A stretch of DNA of 64,000 nt from positions 1,674,001-1,738,000 of the forward strand of contig NZ_CP008887.1 in NCBI RefSeq assembly GCF_000769655.1, read 5' to 3'. The notes beneath the pieces are model-generated. The model was not told where the DNA came from, ran no database searches, and saw only the letters and a program-made list of their open reading frames with translations. The translations under genes and the position numbers were made by a program. The stretch comes from Thermococcus eurythermalis. GTDB lineage: Archaea > Methanobacteriota_B > Thermococci > Thermococcales > Thermococcaceae. Positions 37,723 through 47,978 of this stretch are shown here, piece by piece. Position 1 is the first letter of the stretch; the number at the start of each line of letters is the position of its first letter.

Positions 37723-38004
37723 GTGAAAGCGGTGAGGGAGCTAATTGAGAAAGTTCGTGAGAAGTTTGGTTTTGAAGTCAAGGACATGGCCGACGCCTGG
37801 AGGCTCGTTGAGTGGCTTGAGGAGAGGGGTTGGGTCGTCTACATCATAACTGCCAAAGGAAGAAAGCAGGTCGATGCGTGGCACCCAAACTATGGGACGC
37901 TTTTTGCCCAGTTCGGCGAGAGTCCGAACTTTGAAAGCATATTGGAGGGCATATTGACTGTATCTCTGCTTGCAAAGGAGCTTGAGGAAAAAGGAACGCT
38001 CTGA
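37723..38004 (+). CDS. Hypothetical protein, 93 residues
   Basis: A small soluble protein starting at a GTG, with TATA AGGTTTATTAACC about 25-30 bases upstream. The N-terminal helix is followed by WLEERGWVVYIITAKGRKQVDAW, then FGESPNFESILEGILTVSLLAKELEE. No family is recognised. It is followed by the secreted-helix cassette, but on a transcript that may be separate. Confidence 0.65.
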   Translation: MKAVRELIEKVREKFGFEVKDMADAWRLVEWLEERGWVVYIITAKGRKQVDAWHPNYGTLFAQFGESPNFESILEGILTVSLLAKELEEKGTL

Positions 38005-38065
38005 AACGTTCGTTTCACCGGAGTCCTCAAATATAACAACGCCCCAGTGTTCATCGGTGATGGCG

Positions 38066-39292
38066 ATGGTGGGAACAAGGGGCCTGGCAATGGCCCTTGT
38101 GATACTGCTGGTTAGTAGCGCACTGCCCCTCAGCCTTGCGGAGGGCAGCGACGCGGGGGCAAACGGCACCGCTCCAGAGCCCTACGGAGACCTGGCCCTC
38201 GACAACAGCACCAGAGAGATGGTGATAGCGGGCCAGCTGATTGAGCAACTCCAGAAGCTCAGCAAGCTCGCGGAGAACAAGATAGAGCCCATAAAGGATA
38301 AACTTCCTGAGAACTCAACGATACTGACCCACTACAAGCTTGCAGAGGAGTATAAAGAGAGAGCAGTTAGTGAGTACGAGGCCAGCGACTGCTACAACTC
38401 CATCCGCGATAGCCTAACGGCCATGCACCACTACAAAGTTGCTCTTTCGGGCCTCAAGGAAGCAAAGGGCAGGGGTCAAGACGAGTGGGCGCACATAAGG
38501 CTGGAAATCGAGCGCATGGCGGAGTACTTCAGGTTCGTCGAGAAGACAATAAGGCTGGCGGAGAACCAGGGAATAGACGTGGGCAACCTCAAGGAGCTCT
38601 ACAACGAGACTAGAGATGCGTACAAAGCAGTGCTGGACGACCTCAAGGCCAGGGACTACGAGAAGGCAAAAGAGGACTACGAAACCGCCCGGGAAAAGAA
38701 GGCCCTCCTCGATGGGGAGCTGAAGAAGGTCCGCGAGGAGCTCGCCTATGCAAACGCTGATAAAATCGTCAAGGACTTCCTGGCCAAGGGCGGGGAGGAA
38801 ATTGAGATAGCCCAGAACGCCATCGAGAAGGGGATTGAGAACGGCTACAACGTGACAAGACTTCAGGAAAGCCTCAACGCGTTCTTGGACGTCTACAACG
38901 AAGCCAAAAGCTTGGCAGAGGAAGGCAAATGGGAAGAGGCCTTGAAGGCCATACCGGACAACAGGGAGACGATAGCCCAGTTCCACAGGGCCGTCGAGTT
39001 CGTTCTCAGGAAGGCCCGCGAGGGGGAGCTCGAAGAAAAGCTGAAGGACGTCCGTGCCTTCATCAGGGAAATGAGCGACAGGGTTCAGAAGGACTGGAAA
39101 GCGCTCCGCGAGCTTAAGGGCAGGGGCATAAACACCCAGAGGGCCGAGGCCCAGCTGAGGGCGGCCGTCCAGGAGCTCAGAACCGGCCTCCACCTCCTCA
39201 AGACGGAGAAACCGCTTGGGGCCAAGCCCCACTTTGCGAAGGCATTGGACATGCTCCGCAGGGTCGAAGAGTTTATCTCCGCCCACTCCTGA
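38066..39292 (+). CDS. Secreted alpha-helical protein 1 (cassette A)
   Basis: A 408-residue secreted protein with a signal peptide (GLAMALVILLVSSALPLSLA) and a long, charged, almost wholly helical mature part that looks like TPR- or spectrin-like helical hairpins with coiled-coil potential. It is homologous to the protein at 40295: YNSIRDSLTAMHHYKVAL matches YNESINEALQAMRLYRSAL, and LKELYNETRDAYKAVLDDL matches LEAWYNQTLFAYNAVKTSL. It is followed 32 bases later by a membrane HTH gene. Several in-frame starts exist (38060, 38066); GGTGATG favours 38066. Confidence 0.75.
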   Translation: MVGTRGLAMALVILLVSSALPLSLAEGSDAGANGTAPEPYGDLALDNSTREMVIAGQLIEQLQKLSKLAENKIEPIKDKLPENSTILTHYKLAEEYKERAVSEYEASDCYNSIRDSLTAMHHYKVALSGLKEAKGRGQDEWAHIRLEIERMAEYFRFVEKTIRLAENQGIDVGNLKELYNETRDAYKAVLDDLKARDYEKAKEDYETAREKKALLDGELKKVREELAYANADKIVKDFLAKGGEEIEIAQNAIEKGIENGYNVTRLQESLNAFLDVYNEAKSLAEEGKWEEALKAIPDNRETIAQFHRAVEFVLRKAREGELEEKLKDVRAFIREMSDRVQKDWKALRELKGRGINTQRAEAQLRAAVQELRTGLHLLKTEKPLGAKPHFAKALDMLRRVEEFISAHS

Positions 39293-39324
39293 CCTTTCCT
39301 TTTTCGTTGGGAGGGATGGCCAAG

Positions 39325-40164
39325 ATGAAATCCAGGGCCCTGCCCATCATAATGATCGCGTTGCTTCTCCTGCCCCAGGTTAGTGCCTATACCATCTCGT
39401 CGCTCGTTCTGGCCGTCTACCCCGACGGTTATGTTAAGACCGAATACGAAATACTGCCTGAGGATTACTCCTCCCAGATTGAGCTCCCCCTCATCGGTGG
39501 GCATTACGAGAACGTTATTGTTGAAGACGAGAACGGAAACCCCCTTGACTTCAGGCTCGAAAACGGAACTCTTTTCATCTATCCCGGGGACGCTGAGATC
39601 GTTACGGTGTCCTATTACACCCCCGACATCACCTCCAAGGAGGGGATAGTCTGGACGGTCAACGTTTCTTCCGGGGTTCCCTTTGAGGTCGTCCTCCCTG
39701 AAGGCACCGTTGTCGTCGATTTAAGCGATGTGCCCCTAGAGATAAACGGGACTTCAATAACAATGCCCCCCGGAAACCAGAGCATCTCCTACGTCCTTGG
39801 GGAGTCTCGTTCCTATGAAGGCACTACAGACGAAGACACCAGCGGTAGTGGCATTCCCGTTAAGGCCCTACTGGCAACCGTGGCCGTTTTGGCCGGTGGG
39901 GCAGTGGCAGGTTACTGGTTCAAAATCAGGGGAAGGAAAATAGACGTTGAAGCCCTCTTGGAGAGTGATGAGCTCAGAGACGAAGAGAAGCAGGCGATTA
40001 GATACCTCCTGGAGCACGGCGGGAGGGCCAGCCAGGCGGAGATAAGAGACGCCCTTGGGCTTCCGAAGACAACGGCCTGGAGAATGTTCAGGCGCCTTGA
40101 GGAGAAGGGGTTTATCAAAATCATCAGGGGCAGGAAGGAGAACTGGGTGGAGCTGAGGCGGTAG
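39325..40164 (+). CDS. Membrane-anchored winged-HTH regulator 1 (cassette A)
   Basis: A 279-residue protein with signal peptide or signal anchor at the N-terminus, an external beta-rich domain of about 150 residues (YPDGYVKTEYEILPEDY, TSKEGIVWTVNVSSG, VVVDLSDVPLEING, MPPGNQSISYVLG), one transmembrane helix (VKALLATVAVLAGGAVAGYW) and a cytoplasmic winged HTH with GLPKTTAWRMFRRLEEKGF, ending in KENWVELRR. This is a one-component receptor layout: sensing outside, DNA binding inside. Start at ATG 39325 with GGAGGG nine bases upstream; ATG 39316 is the alternative. The paralogue at 41215 matches along its length. Confidence 0.8.
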   Translation: MKSRALPIIMIALLLLPQVSAYTISSLVLAVYPDGYVKTEYEILPEDYSSQIELPLIGGHYENVIVEDENGNPLDFRLENGTLFIYPGDAEIVTVSYYTPDITSKEGIVWTVNVSSGVPFEVVLPEGTVVVDLSDVPLEINGTSITMPPGNQSISYVLGESRSYEGTTDEDTSGSGIPVKALLATVAVLAGGAVAGYWFKIRGRKIDVEALLESDELRDEEKQAIRYLLEHGGRASQAEIRDALGLPKTTAWRMFRRLEEKGFIKIIRGRKENWVELRR

Positions 40165-40294
40165 AGAAAACGTTATATCTTTTCTCCCCAACTTTATCCG
40201 TCTGAAATCAAGAGGAACTTGAGGAAACGTTTTAAGCCCTCCGTTCCACCGCTTCCCTAATTAGGTGCGGGGGCAACTTAACACGGTGATAACG

Positions 40295-41218
40295 GTGAGG
40301 AGAGCCCCACTCCTGCTTATCCTGGTGATGCTCATCTCCACCATTCCCCAGACCGGCGGGGTTAGTTCCGAGACCGCCTCGGCCTCAGAGCGTGCAAACG
40401 GACTTCTCATGGCCCTGGAGAGGCTGGCGAACTACACCCACCAGATTGGATGCATTTCCGACGAGGCTGATGCCCTGCTGGAAAGGGCAAAGGAGCTCTA
40501 TTGGGCCGGTCAGTACAACGAGAGCATTAACGAGGCCCTCCAAGCAATGCGCCTCTACCGCTCTGCACTAAAGGCCTGTGGGGGGGAGAGAAGCGACTCA
40601 GAAAGCGGGGGGACCAACTGGGTATCGGTTGCCGAGAGCGAGGTTGAAGTTACTGCCAACGTCCTTGAGTACGCCAGAAAGCTCATCGAGTCCGGCGAGC
40701 TGAGTGGGGAAGACCTGAAAAATCTCGAAGCATGGTACAACCAGACCCTCTTCGCTTACAACGCCGTGAAAACGTCTCTTGAAAAGAACGACACCCAGGA
40801 CATCGTTCACAAGATTGCCTTCCTCGTAACATCGAGGGAAAAGCTTGAGAAGGCGATAAACCTCGCGGTCAAAGGCGCTGTCGAGAGGAAGGCAAAGCTG
40901 CTGGGAGATGCCCAGCTCCGCAGAATTGATATACTCATCGAGAGAGGCGCCAATACAACGGAGCTCCTCACCCTAAAAGTGGAGCTTGAAGAGGCCATCA
41001 AGAGCGGCGACACCGGGGAAATCCTGAGGATCCTCAAGGAAGTCCCGAGAATTATGAGGGAACTGAAGCAGAAAGGCGGGATTGGTGGAGCGGCCCGGCG
41101 CGGCCAGGGACAGTCACCTCAACCAGGAAACAGCGACAGAGGCCCCAACGGCGCCCCTCCACAGAACGTCTCCAATCAAACTCCAGGAAAGGGAAGAACG
41201 CGGGGGGAAGGTAGTTGA
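40295..41218 (+). CDS. Secreted alpha-helical protein 2 (cassette B)
   Basis: A 307-residue homologue of the secreted protein at 38066, shorter by about one helical repeat. The signal peptide is RRAPLLLILVMLISTIP. Mature helices contain YNESINEALQAMRLYRSALKAC and SREKLEKAINLAVKGAVERK (in part), and the C-terminus is a Gly/Pro/Asn/Gln-rich tail of about 45 residues absent from the first copy. GTG 40295 follows GGTGAT; GTGs at 40286 and 40265 are alternatives. TATA CGTTTTAAGCC at about 40229 gives it its own promoter. Its stop overlaps the next TTG. Confidence 0.72.
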   Translation: MRRAPLLLILVMLISTIPQTGGVSSETASASERANGLLMALERLANYTHQIGCISDEADALLERAKELYWAGQYNESINEALQAMRLYRSALKACGGERSDSESGGTNWVSVAESEVEVTANVLEYARKLIESGELSGEDLKNLEAWYNQTLFAYNAVKTSLEKNDTQDIVHKIAFLVTSREKLEKAINLAVKGAVERKAKLLGDAQLRRIDILIERGANTTELLTLKVELEEAIKSGDTGEILRILKEVPRIMRELKQKGGIGGAARRGQGQSPQPGNSDRGPNGAPPQNVSNQTPGKGRTRGEGS

Positions 41219-42204
41219 GAAAGCTCGCGGCAGCGGTGCTCCTGATGGTATTCCTGCCCCTTGTTGCTGGACAGGCCACCGTTGAGATAGTTTTGGTCGA
41301 GGTCTATGAGAGCGGTTACGTTAAGGTGACGCAGGTCGTCCTCCCCTCGGAGTATTCGGTGGCGGTTGAAGTCCCTGTTCTGGGTGGGAACATCACGGGG
41401 CTTTCCGTTCTGGACGAGAGTGGAGACCCCCTGCTCTTTGAGGTGAACGGGAGCTCTCTAACGGTCTACGCCCTCAACTCCACGACAAAGATTAGAATCA
41501 CGTACTTCACGGCCTCTCTCACATCAAAGGAGGGGGAGCTCTGGAACCTGAGCTACAGCTTTCCCTATCCCGTAACGGTAAAGCTCCCCACTGGGGCGGT
41601 CGTGGTCGACCTGAGCGACCTTCCCTTCACGATAACCGCAAACACCATAACTATGCCCCCCGGAAACCAGTACGTCTCCTACATTCTCCCTGCCCCCACG
41701 TCCACGCCGGAACCGACGCCGACCACGACAACCACGACATCGGACACGCAGTCCACCCCCACAAACACGACCTCCAGCTCGACCTCTTCAACTACCTCAA
41801 CGCCCCAGCCGACCTCAACAACCCCTGAAAGCACGACGCCCGAAAGCCCCGACACGTCCTCAACGGCAGGTATAAAGAGCCTGCTCCCGCTGATTGGCCT
41901 CATTGCCATCGTTGGGGTCAGTGCACTCGCATACTGGAGCAAAAAGAAAACGGGCACCGGAGACCTGCCGGTCTCAAGGGACGAGTTCAGGGAGAAGCTT
42001 GAGTCGCTGGGACTCACTGAGGGGGAAATCAACGCGCTCCTCTACGTTTACGACCAGGGCGGGAGGGCCAAACAGGCGGACGTCAGAAAGGCCCTTGGGA
42101 TTCCGAAGACCACGGCGTGGAGGATGTTCAAGCGCCTCGAAGAGAACGGCCTCGTCAAGGTCTACAAAAGGGGAAAGGAAAACTGGGTGGAGCTCAAGTT
42201 TTAA
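41215..42204 (+). CDS. Membrane-anchored winged-HTH regulator 2 (cassette B)
   Basis: A 329-residue paralogue of the protein at 39325. It has a signal peptide (KLAAAVLLMVFLPLVAG), an external domain with the same blocks (TSKEGELWNLSYSFPYP, VVVDLSDLPFTI, MPPGNQYVSYILP), then an added linker of about 55 residues made almost only of Thr, Ser and Pro, a transmembrane helix (SLLPLIGLIAIVGVSALAYW) and a winged HTH with GIPKTTAWRMFKRLEENGL. TTG start overlaps the previous TGA as TTGA, after GGGGGGAAGG. The linker is probably O-glycosylated and lifts the sensor away from the membrane. Confidence 0.8.
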   Translation: MRKLAAAVLLMVFLPLVAGQATVEIVLVEVYESGYVKVTQVVLPSEYSVAVEVPVLGGNITGLSVLDESGDPLLFEVNGSSLTVYALNSTTKIRITYFTASLTSKEGELWNLSYSFPYPVTVKLPTGAVVVDLSDLPFTITANTITMPPGNQYVSYILPAPTSTPEPTPTTTTTTSDTQSTPTNTTSSSTSSTTSTPQPTSTTPESTTPESPDTSSTAGIKSLLPLIGLIAIVGVSALAYWSKKKTGTGDLPVSRDEFREKLESLGLTEGEINALLYVYDQGGRAKQADVRKALGIPKTTAWRMFKRLEENGLVKVYKRGKENWVELKF

Positions 42205-42242: not shown

Positions 42243-43616
42243 TCACTCTTTGCGGGCAAACCTCTTGAAATCTTCCAAGTCCCAGGTGAAGTGGCCTCTC
42301 TCCCTAAGGCGTTCTTTGTTCTCAACTCTCCGTGCCACTATCCCGTGGTTTGCCTCCCATCCCTTCAACCCCACAAGCTCGGCCTTTCTCTCCAAGTCCT
42401 TCAGAATTCCCATGGCTTCCCTCTCGCTCAGGTCTTTCCACTTGACCTCGACGAAGAGGGCTTTCCTACTCCGTTCGTCCAGTGCAACTAGGTCTACCTC
42501 TTCACCCTTCCGCCACCACCTGCTGATCTTGGCTAAGCGAAACGGCAGCTTGCCGGCTCTGTTAAGCCTGAGGATGAATTCCTTTGCAACGTCCTCAAAG
42601 ACTCCTCCGAGGTAGTGGTTGTAATCCCTCAAGAAATCGTCCCAGAAGCTGAGGTCCTCAAGCTCTATCTCGTTCCTGTAACGCTCGACGAAGCGGAAGT
42701 AGAAAGCCAAGTAGTTGTCGTCAATCCTGTAAAGGGTGTTTTTAGTCTTCGGCTTCGCTGTTATCGGGATTTCCCGTTTAAGAAATCCGAGCCTCTCAAG
42801 AACCTCAACGTACTTAAAAAGGTTTGAACGCGGGATTCCTGTATAGGTGCTTATCTCGTTGAACCTCCTCTTCCCTTCAGCTACTGCCTTGAGGATGAGC
42901 CTGTAGACCCTCGGCTCCCTCAGCTCGCTTGAGAGAAGGAAGTCGCCCTCGGCATAGAGAAAGCCCCTCTTGTCAAAGGCCAGCCTCTTCACGTCCTCGA
43001 ACCTCTCGAAAAGCTCAAGGTACGCCGGAATTCCGCCGGTTACCCCGTATATTTGAACCGCCTCTTCAACGTCAACCCCGAGGAGCTTCCATGAGTCAAA
43101 GAACCCGAGCGGGGAGAGCTTTATCTGCCCGTCCCTCCGGCCGTAGAGCGGGCTCTTCTGGCTCAGTACGTGCTCCTCCATCATGCCGACGGATGAGCCA
43201 ACGAGTATCAGGTGGAGGTTTGATGTCCTGACTATCTCGTCCACTATGTACTGGAACTCGCTCAGAACCCTTTTGTCGGACTGGATGAGGTAGGGGAACT
43301 CGTCTATAACGACCACGACCTTTCCCTTCTCTGTCAGGTATCTGAAAACGTCCGAAAAGCTCGAAAACGACGTTTCGCTCAGAAAAGCTAAGGGAAATGC
43401 CTCAAGCACCGCCCTCGAAAACTCCCTCAGGTTGTCGGAGTAGGTGCTGTTCCGAGCAAGGTAATAAACGGAGGGCTTGTTCCGCATGAACTCCTTGATG
43501 AGCCTCGTCTTCCCTACCCTTCTCCTCCCGTAGACCGGGAGGAAGGAGTTCTCCTTCTCCCACAGCTCCTCGAGGAACTCAAGCTCCCGCTTTCTGTCCA
43601 CGAAAGTTATTGCCAT
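42243..43616 (-). CDS. Archaeal AAA ATPase with DUF234 nuclease-fold domain
   Basis: A 457-residue member of the archaeal ATPase family common in Thermococcales. Walker A is GRRRVGKTRLIKEF (near residue 30), Walker B VVVVIDEFPYLI, sensor VGSSVGMMEE. A winged HTH lies around YTGIPRSNLFKYVEVLERLG, and the C-terminal DUF234 domain has GEEVDLVALDERSRKALFVEVKW, the D-E-K arrangement of restriction-endonuclease-like folds. Biological role is unknown; these genes are often mobile or redundant. It has a TATA-like region around 43633-43640 and stands alone. Confidence 0.87.
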   Translation of the reverse strand: MAITFVDRKRELEFLEELWEKENSFLPVYGRRRVGKTRLIKEFMRNKPSVYYLARNSTYSDNLREFSRAVLEAFPLAFLSETSFSSFSDVFRYLTEKGKVVVVIDEFPYLIQSDKRVLSEFQYIVDEIVRTSNLHLILVGSSVGMMEEHVLSQKSPLYGRRDGQIKLSPLGFFDSWKLLGVDVEEAVQIYGVTGGIPAYLELFERFEDVKRLAFDKRGFLYAEGDFLLSSELREPRVYRLILKAVAEGKRRFNEISTYTGIPRSNLFKYVEVLERLGFLKREIPITAKPKTKNTLYRIDDNYLAFYFRFVERYRNEIELEDLSFWDDFLRDYNHYLGGVFEDVAKEFILRLNRAGKLPFRLAKISRWWRKGEEVDLVALDERSRKALFVEVKWKDLSEREAMGILKDLERKAELVGLKGWEANHGIVARRVENKERLRERGHFTWDLEDFKRFARKE

Positions 43617-46539: not shown

Positions 46540-47978
46540 GTTGCAATAAGACTCGAAGAGAATTGAAAGCTTTTCAGGAGCACGCCCCACACGCTGAGGA
46601 GCATTGCGTTGCAATAAGACTCGAAGAGAATTGAAAGTGGAAGCCTCGCGAAGGCTCTCGAAGACACGTACCAGGTTGCAATAAGACTCGAAGAGAATTG
46701 AAAGTCAGCGTGGTGAACGGCAGGTCGAGGAGCCTCGCCTCGTTGCAATAAGACTCGAAGAGAATTGAAAGAGGTTATGCTTTTGTTGTCAATTGTTGAC
46801 GAGTTTAAGGTTGCAATAAGACTCGAAGAGAATTGAAAGGGGCTTCGGCGACGACGTGGGCTTTTTGTCGAGGGCTGTTGCAATAAGACTCGAAGAGAAT
46901 TGAAAGAACTTTTGTTTAAGGTCCAGGTCGTGTATAAGCTCCTCGTTGCAATAAGACTCGAAGAGAATTGAAAGTCATGTGCAATCATATACGTAATAGA
47001 TAAATCTACCAGTTGCAATAAGACTCGAAGAGAATTGAAAGAATTGTTCGTGGCGTCGTAGGCCTGCACCCTTGGGAGTTGCAATAAGACTCGAAGAGAA
47101 TTGAAAGGTGGACATCTTTATGCTCGCGGCCCAGCACGACGAGGTTGCAATAAGACTCGAAGAGAATTGAAAGTGAACGGTGGGCCTGTCGTGGCGGGCG
47201 AAGTCCACGTAGGTTGCAATAAGACTCGAAGAGAATTGAAAGAGCGGTATCGCCTGCGTCATCACAATGTGCTTACGTGGTTGCAATAAGACTCGAAGAG
47301 AATTGAAAGTTCTGAGCTGGAAATACGGTGCTCCACGTAGCTAACTGTTGCAATAAGACTCGAAGAGAATTGAAAGCCTAAACGGGTTGTTGTCCTTCGC
47401 ATACGCCTCGTCGAGTTGCAATAAGACTCGAAGAGAATTGAAAGGTACTCACCCCATAAAATGAGGCAGAGGGCGGCGAGGTTGCAATAAGACTCGAAGA
47501 GAATTGAAAGCGCGTAGTTGTCACCTTTGTGGTTGTCGTGGTTGCCTGTTGCAATAAGACTCGAAGAGAATTGAAAGCTTACCTCCGCCGTTATACGCAC
47601 AGCCCGTCCGCTCTTGTTGCAATAAGACTCGAAGAGAATTGAAAGCCTTCATTCGATTACCTCCTGTGCCTCCTTTTTCAGGTTGCAATAAGACTCGAAG
47701 AGAATTGAAAGTTTGTAGTGAAACTTTACCATACTTCTTGATTACCAAGTTGCAATAAGACTCGAAGAGAATTGAAAGCAGCAAAAAATTTCAAAACCCG
47801 GAATAGGACATACCCGTTGCAATAAGACTCGAAGAGAATTGAAAGTAGTGTTTAATGTTTTCAAGAATTTCTTTTGCGAGTTGTTGCAATAAGACTCGAA
47901 GAGAATTGAAAGTTCAAGAGATTCTCAGCAACGCCGAACCGCCGAGGTGTTGCAATAAGACTCGAAGAGAATTGAAAT
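46540..47978 (+). CRISPR. CRISPR array, 22 repeats and 21 spacers
   Basis: Repeats are 30 bases, beginning GTTGCAATAAGACTCGAAGA and ending GAATTGAAAG. I read starts at 46540, 46608, 46675, 46742, 46810, 46877, 46945, 47012, 47078, 47144, 47213, 47280, 47347, 47415, 47481, 47548, 47616, 47682, 47749, 47816, 47883 and 47949. Spacers are 36-39 bases and all different. Only the last repeat is altered (final G to T), which marks the leader-distal end. The repeat is of the Thermococcales type used with type I and III systems and gives the GAAAG 5' handle. No cas gene lies in the window. Confidence 0.98.

Follow-up and report, generated by a model that had tools for sequence, protein, structure and literature searches.

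Two copies of a two-gene cassette lie side by side in the 64,000-nucleotide stretch of a Thermococcaceae genome, that of Thermococcus eurythermalis, that was analyzed here (the window; contig NZ_CP008887.1, positions 1,674,001-1,738,000). Each copy encodes a secreted helical protein (H) followed by a type I membrane receptor that ends in a winged helix-turn-helix (wHTH) domain (R). As judged by sequence comparison across genomes, the pair is real, widely conserved, and functionally linked, and it is accompanied by a conserved operator. The pair is probably a sensor of the cell surface that regulates its own synthesis via this DNA site. We favor, with moderate confidence, the view that it is a self-regulating archaeal co-component cassette in which R would read the surface via H and set the expression of both genes.

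The two cassettes occupy window positions 38058-42204 as four adjacent ORFs on the plus strand, H1-R1 and then H2-R2 (Table 1), and orthologous cassettes occur throughout the Thermococcaceae, which bears out the duplicated two-gene arrangement described in the earlier note. H1 starts at 38058/38060, 6-8 nt ahead of the coordinate given there, if the transcript is leaderless. H2 has a probable GTG start at 40286, the longest ORF beginning at 40265, and the start of R2 overlaps the H2 stop by 4 nt. Hydropathy analysis assigns H1 and H2 a single N-terminal hydrophobic segment and no further transmembrane (TM) segment, and R1 and R2 a signal segment plus one internal TM helix with basic residues after it. 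The C-terminal tail of H2 is rich in Gly, Pro, and Arg, and alignment reveals a long Ser/Thr/Pro stalk in R2 that is absent from R1. Both members are homologous between the copies, again as the earlier note had it: the match between R1 and R2 is 41% in the ectodomain and 44% over the TM-HTH portion (E 1e-37), and that between H1 and H2, which spans 111 aa, is 32% (E 9e-10). A chance arrangement or artefact is ruled out by the wide recurrence of orthologues and of a common operator. A recent simple duplication was likewise ruled out; the two cassettes are separate old lineages that are co-inherited across genomes.

Table 1. Features of the two cassettes, in window coordinates.
Feature	Position	Strand	Basis
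Operator 1	37993..38017	+	GGAAC half-site at 37993, 10 bp from GAAACG; inverted repeat
BRE/TATA-like element ending CTCAAATATAA	38022..38036	+	Sequence; putative promoter role
H1, secreted all-helical protein, ~410 aa, signal peptide and tandem helix bundles	38058..39292	+	ORF, hydropathy, model
R1, type I membrane winged-HTH receptor, 282 aa	39316..40164	+	ORF, Pfam, hydropathy, AF2
R1 ectodomain, residues 25-161, beta fold	39388..39798	+	AF2 pLDDT mostly 93-98
R1 transmembrane helix, residues 183-204, basic residues after	39862..39927	+	Hydropathy, AF2
R1 winged HTH, residues 211-280, DUF7343	39946..40155	+	Pfam E 8e-9; fold match
Operator 2 and TATA-like region	40214..40264	+	Sequence and promoter comparison
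H2, secreted helical protein	40286..41218	+	ORF, homology to H1, promoter context
R2, type I membrane winged-HTH receptor, 329 aa, TTG start	41215..42204	+	ORF, Pfam, homology, hydropathy
R2 Ser/Thr/Pro-rich stalk, ectodomain to TM helix	41692..41859	+	Sequence and alignment
R2 winged HTH, residues 262-328, DUF7343	41998..42198	+	Pfam E 3e-8

The wHTH domains of both receptors score above the gathering cut-off of Pfam DUF7343 (35.7 and 33.8 bits vs 27.6; PF24034) and also match MarR, TrmB, and HTH_24; a DUF7343 match at E 0.01 or better is present in 32 of 32 aligned receptors. Searches of Pfam, NCBIfam, and PDB sequences returned no named family for H. Among the neighboring features, a 93-aa ORF without a Pfam match (37723-38004) terminates within operator 1, whose inverted repeat opens with the TGA stop codon of this ORF. 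An archaeal ATPase_2/DUF234 protein is encoded on the opposite strand downstream of R2 (42243-43616), between the cassettes and metG, and a CRISPR array at 46540-47978 holds GTTGCAATAAGACTCGAAGAGAATTGAAAG in 22 copies, one every 66-69 nt; the ORFs called across this array are spurious.

The AlphaFold2 model of R1 (pLDDT 86.7) is confident and, together with the sequence, supports the layout first proposed for the receptor, namely a beta domain on the outside, a single TM helix, and a wHTH in the cytoplasm. The predicted ectodomain resembles the N-terminal domain of ribophorin I/OST1 (8agb_E; VIA Z 13.4, 2.5 Å over 140 residues) and the N-domains of M1/M61 peptidases, corresponding to the saddle domain of M1 aminopeptidase (Z 9.7-11.5), and no sequence match of the R ectodomain to solved structures was found. 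R thus shares a predicted fold with ribophorin I/OST1 and M1 aminopeptidase but has no catalytic domain, and the likeness of the modeled ectodomain to these proteins says nothing of function. For the modeled wHTH, the fold matches are to MarR proteins and to TFE (Z about 10). For H1, the model (pLDDT 84.8) predicts a chain of helical hairpins and bundles; its matches to DUF357, talin, and catenin (Z about 10) were discarded as lying within the chance range for helical bundles. The relative arrangement of domains is unreliable in the models of both R1 and H1 (pTM 0.55 and 0.49, respectively).

To follow the pair across genomes, 94 Thermococcaceae genomes were searched separately with R1 and with H2, and ∼130 loci around receptor matches were annotated using ectodomain, wHTH, and H profiles. 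The resulting R-H linkage is not circular, because receptors were sampled by similarity to R1 and independently of the presence of H. H lies directly upstream in 100 of the 107 wHTH receptor loci with upstream room, mostly at a gap of 0-100 nt, a count slightly blurred by gene fragments, where a gene is cut by the edge of a locus or frameshifted. The first count, 98 with H and 9 without, was revised on inspection, when one locus in which H was masked by a longest-ORF start (L115) and one with a divergent secreted helical ORF upstream (L096) were reassigned as paired. The seven wHTH receptors without H comprise L147 and one orthologous group confined to a single genus (L110, L114, L124, L126, L128, and L140), in which a DUF134 HTH gene lies directly beside the receptor (for this neighbor in L126, Pfam E 1e-26). 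Two R1 orthologues, L104 (G026) and L123 (G028), are split into two ORFs and are apparently frameshifted or decaying.

A variant of the receptor lacks the HTH altogether: 11 loci encode the ectodomain, the TM helix, and few further residues (∼195 aa), and a full H gene lies upstream in every one of them. Since the ectodomain-H pair is kept without the HTH, the ectodomain functions with H independently of DNA binding, and the arrangement of these genes favors a physical association of H with the ectodomain. The earlier note had held that frequent receptors without the helical gene would speak against its proposal; with H upstream in 100/107 and 11/11 loci, this is not the pattern found. Beyond the Thermococcaceae, a scan of named genomes and of the phylum located receptors in other Thermococci families, Hecatellales, Bathyarchaeota, Geocrenenecus, Wolframiiraptor, Vulcanisaeta, and Caldivirga. 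Gene order is H-R in six loci (L239-L244) from two further families of Thermococci and in one bathyarchaeal/hecatellal locus (L201), and R-H with H adjacent in five bathyarchaeal/hecatellal loci (L190, L198, L199, L200, and L202); in L191, L196, and L203, H is upstream of the receptor with other genes intervening, and no H was seen beside the receptors at L195 and L197.

The two proteins are also co-inherited. The R and H distance matrices show a correlation of r = 0.90 (n = 109 pairs), a value that derives in part from shared species and gene history, and the R and H clusters coincide (ARI 0.95 at ten groups). The matching of paralogues in loci with two cassettes is free of the genome-history effect and was concordant in 27/27 informative cases. 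In addition, seven receptors from Bathyarchaeota/Hecatella contain an extra H-type helical hairpin between the ectodomain and the TM helix. It matches the H profile weakly (9-16 bits), scoring above all 300 shuffles in six of the seven, and this resemblance is suggestive of an H-like module in cis.

These observations bear on a different reading of the locus, in which H has a structural role at the surface and R is merely a neighboring autoregulator that senses temperature, sugar, lipid, or peptide and makes no contact with H. Such a division of labor would suit the receptors that lack H, the orphan H genes that retain the operator with no receptor alongside, the tie of the promoter site to H, and an ectodomain fold like that of substrate- or peptide-handling domains. 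It sits poorly with the HTH-less ectodomain-TM protein found beside H in 11/11 loci, with the very tight co-inheritance of R and H, and with the helical hairpin that some receptors have in cis, and we regard it as unlikely, if the most serious of the alternatives. We retain the reading in which R monitors H, for which the role of H as ligand or co-sensor suggested in the earlier note is plausible.

The second and most telling line of evidence is the promoter element, which had escaped the earlier note. Operator 1 contains a perfect inverted repeat, TGAAACG-TT-CGTTTCA (38002-38017), with the BRE/TATA-like GAGTCCTCAAATATAA directly downstream, where YCCTMAAATA is conserved in orthologues. Operator 2 consists of a GGAAC-N5-GAAACG direct repeat (40214-40229) together with inverted GTTCC (40243) and TTCCC (40253) and a TAATTAG. 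Most cassettes have a conserved element, either TGAAACG-NN-CGTTTCA or GRAAC repeats at exactly 10-bp spacing, that abuts the TATA region, and the larger cassette groups follow one grammar of GRAAC repeats 10 bp apart plus an inverted GTTYC beside the TATA element. Of the 135 regions upstream of H, 72 contain the operator 1 site with ≤3 mismatches, in most cases at -52 to -55. GRAAC-N5-GRAAC occurs in 67 of 86 non-redundant H promoters (shuffle expectation 0.03; 2.4% of random windows), and the distances between GRAAC pairs are 10 (80 times), 20 (13), 30 (3), and 40 (3), with two others only, up to 40. Outside the Thermococcaceae, the 16-mer precedes H in six loci from two other Thermococci families, a bathyarchaeon (L201) has GAAACG...CGTTTC and GTTCC ahead of H, and the Hecatellales promoters (L188, L190, and L202) carry a different palindrome, GGATGGATAATCCATCC, with one base changed in L188. 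The operator also stands ahead of HTH-less cassettes and of three orphan H genes; therefore, regulation in trans must occur. Given that the operator is shared, autoregulation is the main output visible in sequence.

Use of the operator is nearly private to the cassettes. In the host genome, the only match to the 16-mer with <3 mismatches is at H1, and GRAAC-N5-GRAACG occurs four times, at the two cassettes and at two sites within ORFs. A relaxed repeat pattern gave 22 matches in the host genome versus 31 in the control, and only the two cassettes carry the repeat ahead of a TATA element. A large regulon was not found in the host genome, where the remaining repeat matches fall inside ORFs or have no promoter setting; since the site is confined to cassette promoters, the main visible target is the cassette itself. 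In some relatives, the site precedes a gene for a small protein of ∼105-125 aa (L295, L296, L301, and L305, in four genomes) that gave no Pfam match for the two tested and most homologues of which lack the cassette operator.

The assignment of this element to R merits scrutiny, as binding of R to the GRAAC element is our inference and the element also occurs ahead of genes with no adjacent receptor. An unrelated cytosolic factor could bind the site, with R regulating other genes or serving mainly to anchor H. We consider this improbable: the element is found again and again with paralogous R-H operons, which have the wHTH of R in common, it is limited to R-H operon promoters in the host genome, one genome (G076) has neither R nor H, and another (G073) has no H and at most one marginal R match.

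On the self-regulating reading, H would be exported and fold into a rod of tandem helical bundles, and R would span the membrane, the beta ectodomain facing outward and the wHTH inward. The ectodomain would read how much H is present, or how H is attached or strained at the surface, and the signal would cross via the single TM helix of R. Several R wHTH domains may then bind the array of GRAAC half-sites and the inverted repeat at the BRE/TATA element; with the 10-bp phasing, consecutive half-sites share one face of the DNA, as would be anticipated if several tethered wHTH domains bind together. The position of the operator upstream of the BRE/TATA element fits activation, which is the most likely mode, and repression could act through the last half-site, which is in contact with the BRE. 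The output of H and R would in this way follow the state of the cell surface. An alternative route for the signal is release of R by intramembrane proteolysis, with H controlling cleavage and the free wHTH acting as regulator. The type I topology of R and the variable stalk between its ectodomain and TM helix would accommodate cleavage, and both features also occur in other cleavage-controlled regulators. Known transmembrane regulators of the ToxR kind, however, act from the membrane, and we think release of R very improbable. The most specific form of our proposal, a previously undescribed surface-reading complex present in several phyla, in which a secreted helical rod and a ribophorin-fold receptor control the gene for the rod through cooperative wHTH domains on 10-bp-phased half-sites, is put forward tentatively, as something we doubt slightly more readily than we accept.

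The earlier note knew of no described system of this form, which was too strong, as transmembrane transcription regulators (TTRs) are widespread in archaea and the bacterial co-component systems ToxR/ToxS and VtrA/VtrC follow the same logic. According to a survey (PMC10269533), TTRs have been reported in archaea, make up a high share of Thermococci signalling genes, and like R combine a DNA-binding domain and a TM region in one chain; its passages on these proteins do not describe an R-type ectodomain, a secreted partner, or the operator. R, with its DUF7343 wHTH and one TM helix besides the signal peptide, has the composition of a TTR. Pfam defines DUF7343 by the wHTH alone, and R1 and R2 pass its cut-off; we take them to be COG2512-type membrane-associated regulators. 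The open-licence literature yielded no published function for DUF7343/COG2512 and no paper on the R-H family.

In VtrA/VtrC and ToxR/ToxS, the HTH is N-terminal and the sensor C-terminal. These systems (Kinch et al., 2022, PMC9214523) pair a membrane-anchored wHTH protein with an extracytoplasmic partner that is encoded next to it, in some cases by an overlapping gene. The H-R cassette resembles them in its gene logic and fast evolution. H and R are likewise adjacent or overlapping genes, conserved as a pair. Topology is inverted in R, where the ectodomain is N-terminal, with a predicted ribophorin/M1-like fold, and the HTH C-terminal, and whereas the partner in VtrA/VtrC and ToxR/ToxS is a lipocalin-like beta protein, H is all-helical and secreted. 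The cassette is an analogue of these systems and not a member of their superfamily, which is characterized by an N-terminal OmpR-like wHTH and a lipocalin-like partner; the wHTH of R is C-terminal and MarR/TrmB-like. R is also like ArnR and ArnR1 of Sulfolobus in being an archaeal membrane-bound HTH regulator, these two having the HTH in the N-terminal region and belonging to the archaellum regulatory network according to PMC13286277 (which cites Lassak, 2013 and Bischof, 2019). The ArnR type combines an N-terminal HTH with TM helices, whereas R has a C-terminal HTH, a single TM helix, and a signal peptide. We know of no secreted helical partner for ArnR or ArnR1.

The H-R cassette thus falls within the transmembrane transcription regulators, with sensor parts unrelated to those of ToxR/ToxS and VtrA/VtrC. 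Because it occurs in several phyla of archaea, the system is likely to be old, and the predicted fold of the R ectodomain resembles subunits of the eukaryotic oligosaccharyltransferase. Surface sensing and transmembrane signalling are poorly known in archaea; the cassette supplies a conserved receptor together with a candidate partner and a precise operator, all within a genetically tractable group, the Thermococcales, making membrane-tethered control of archaeal transcription directly testable.
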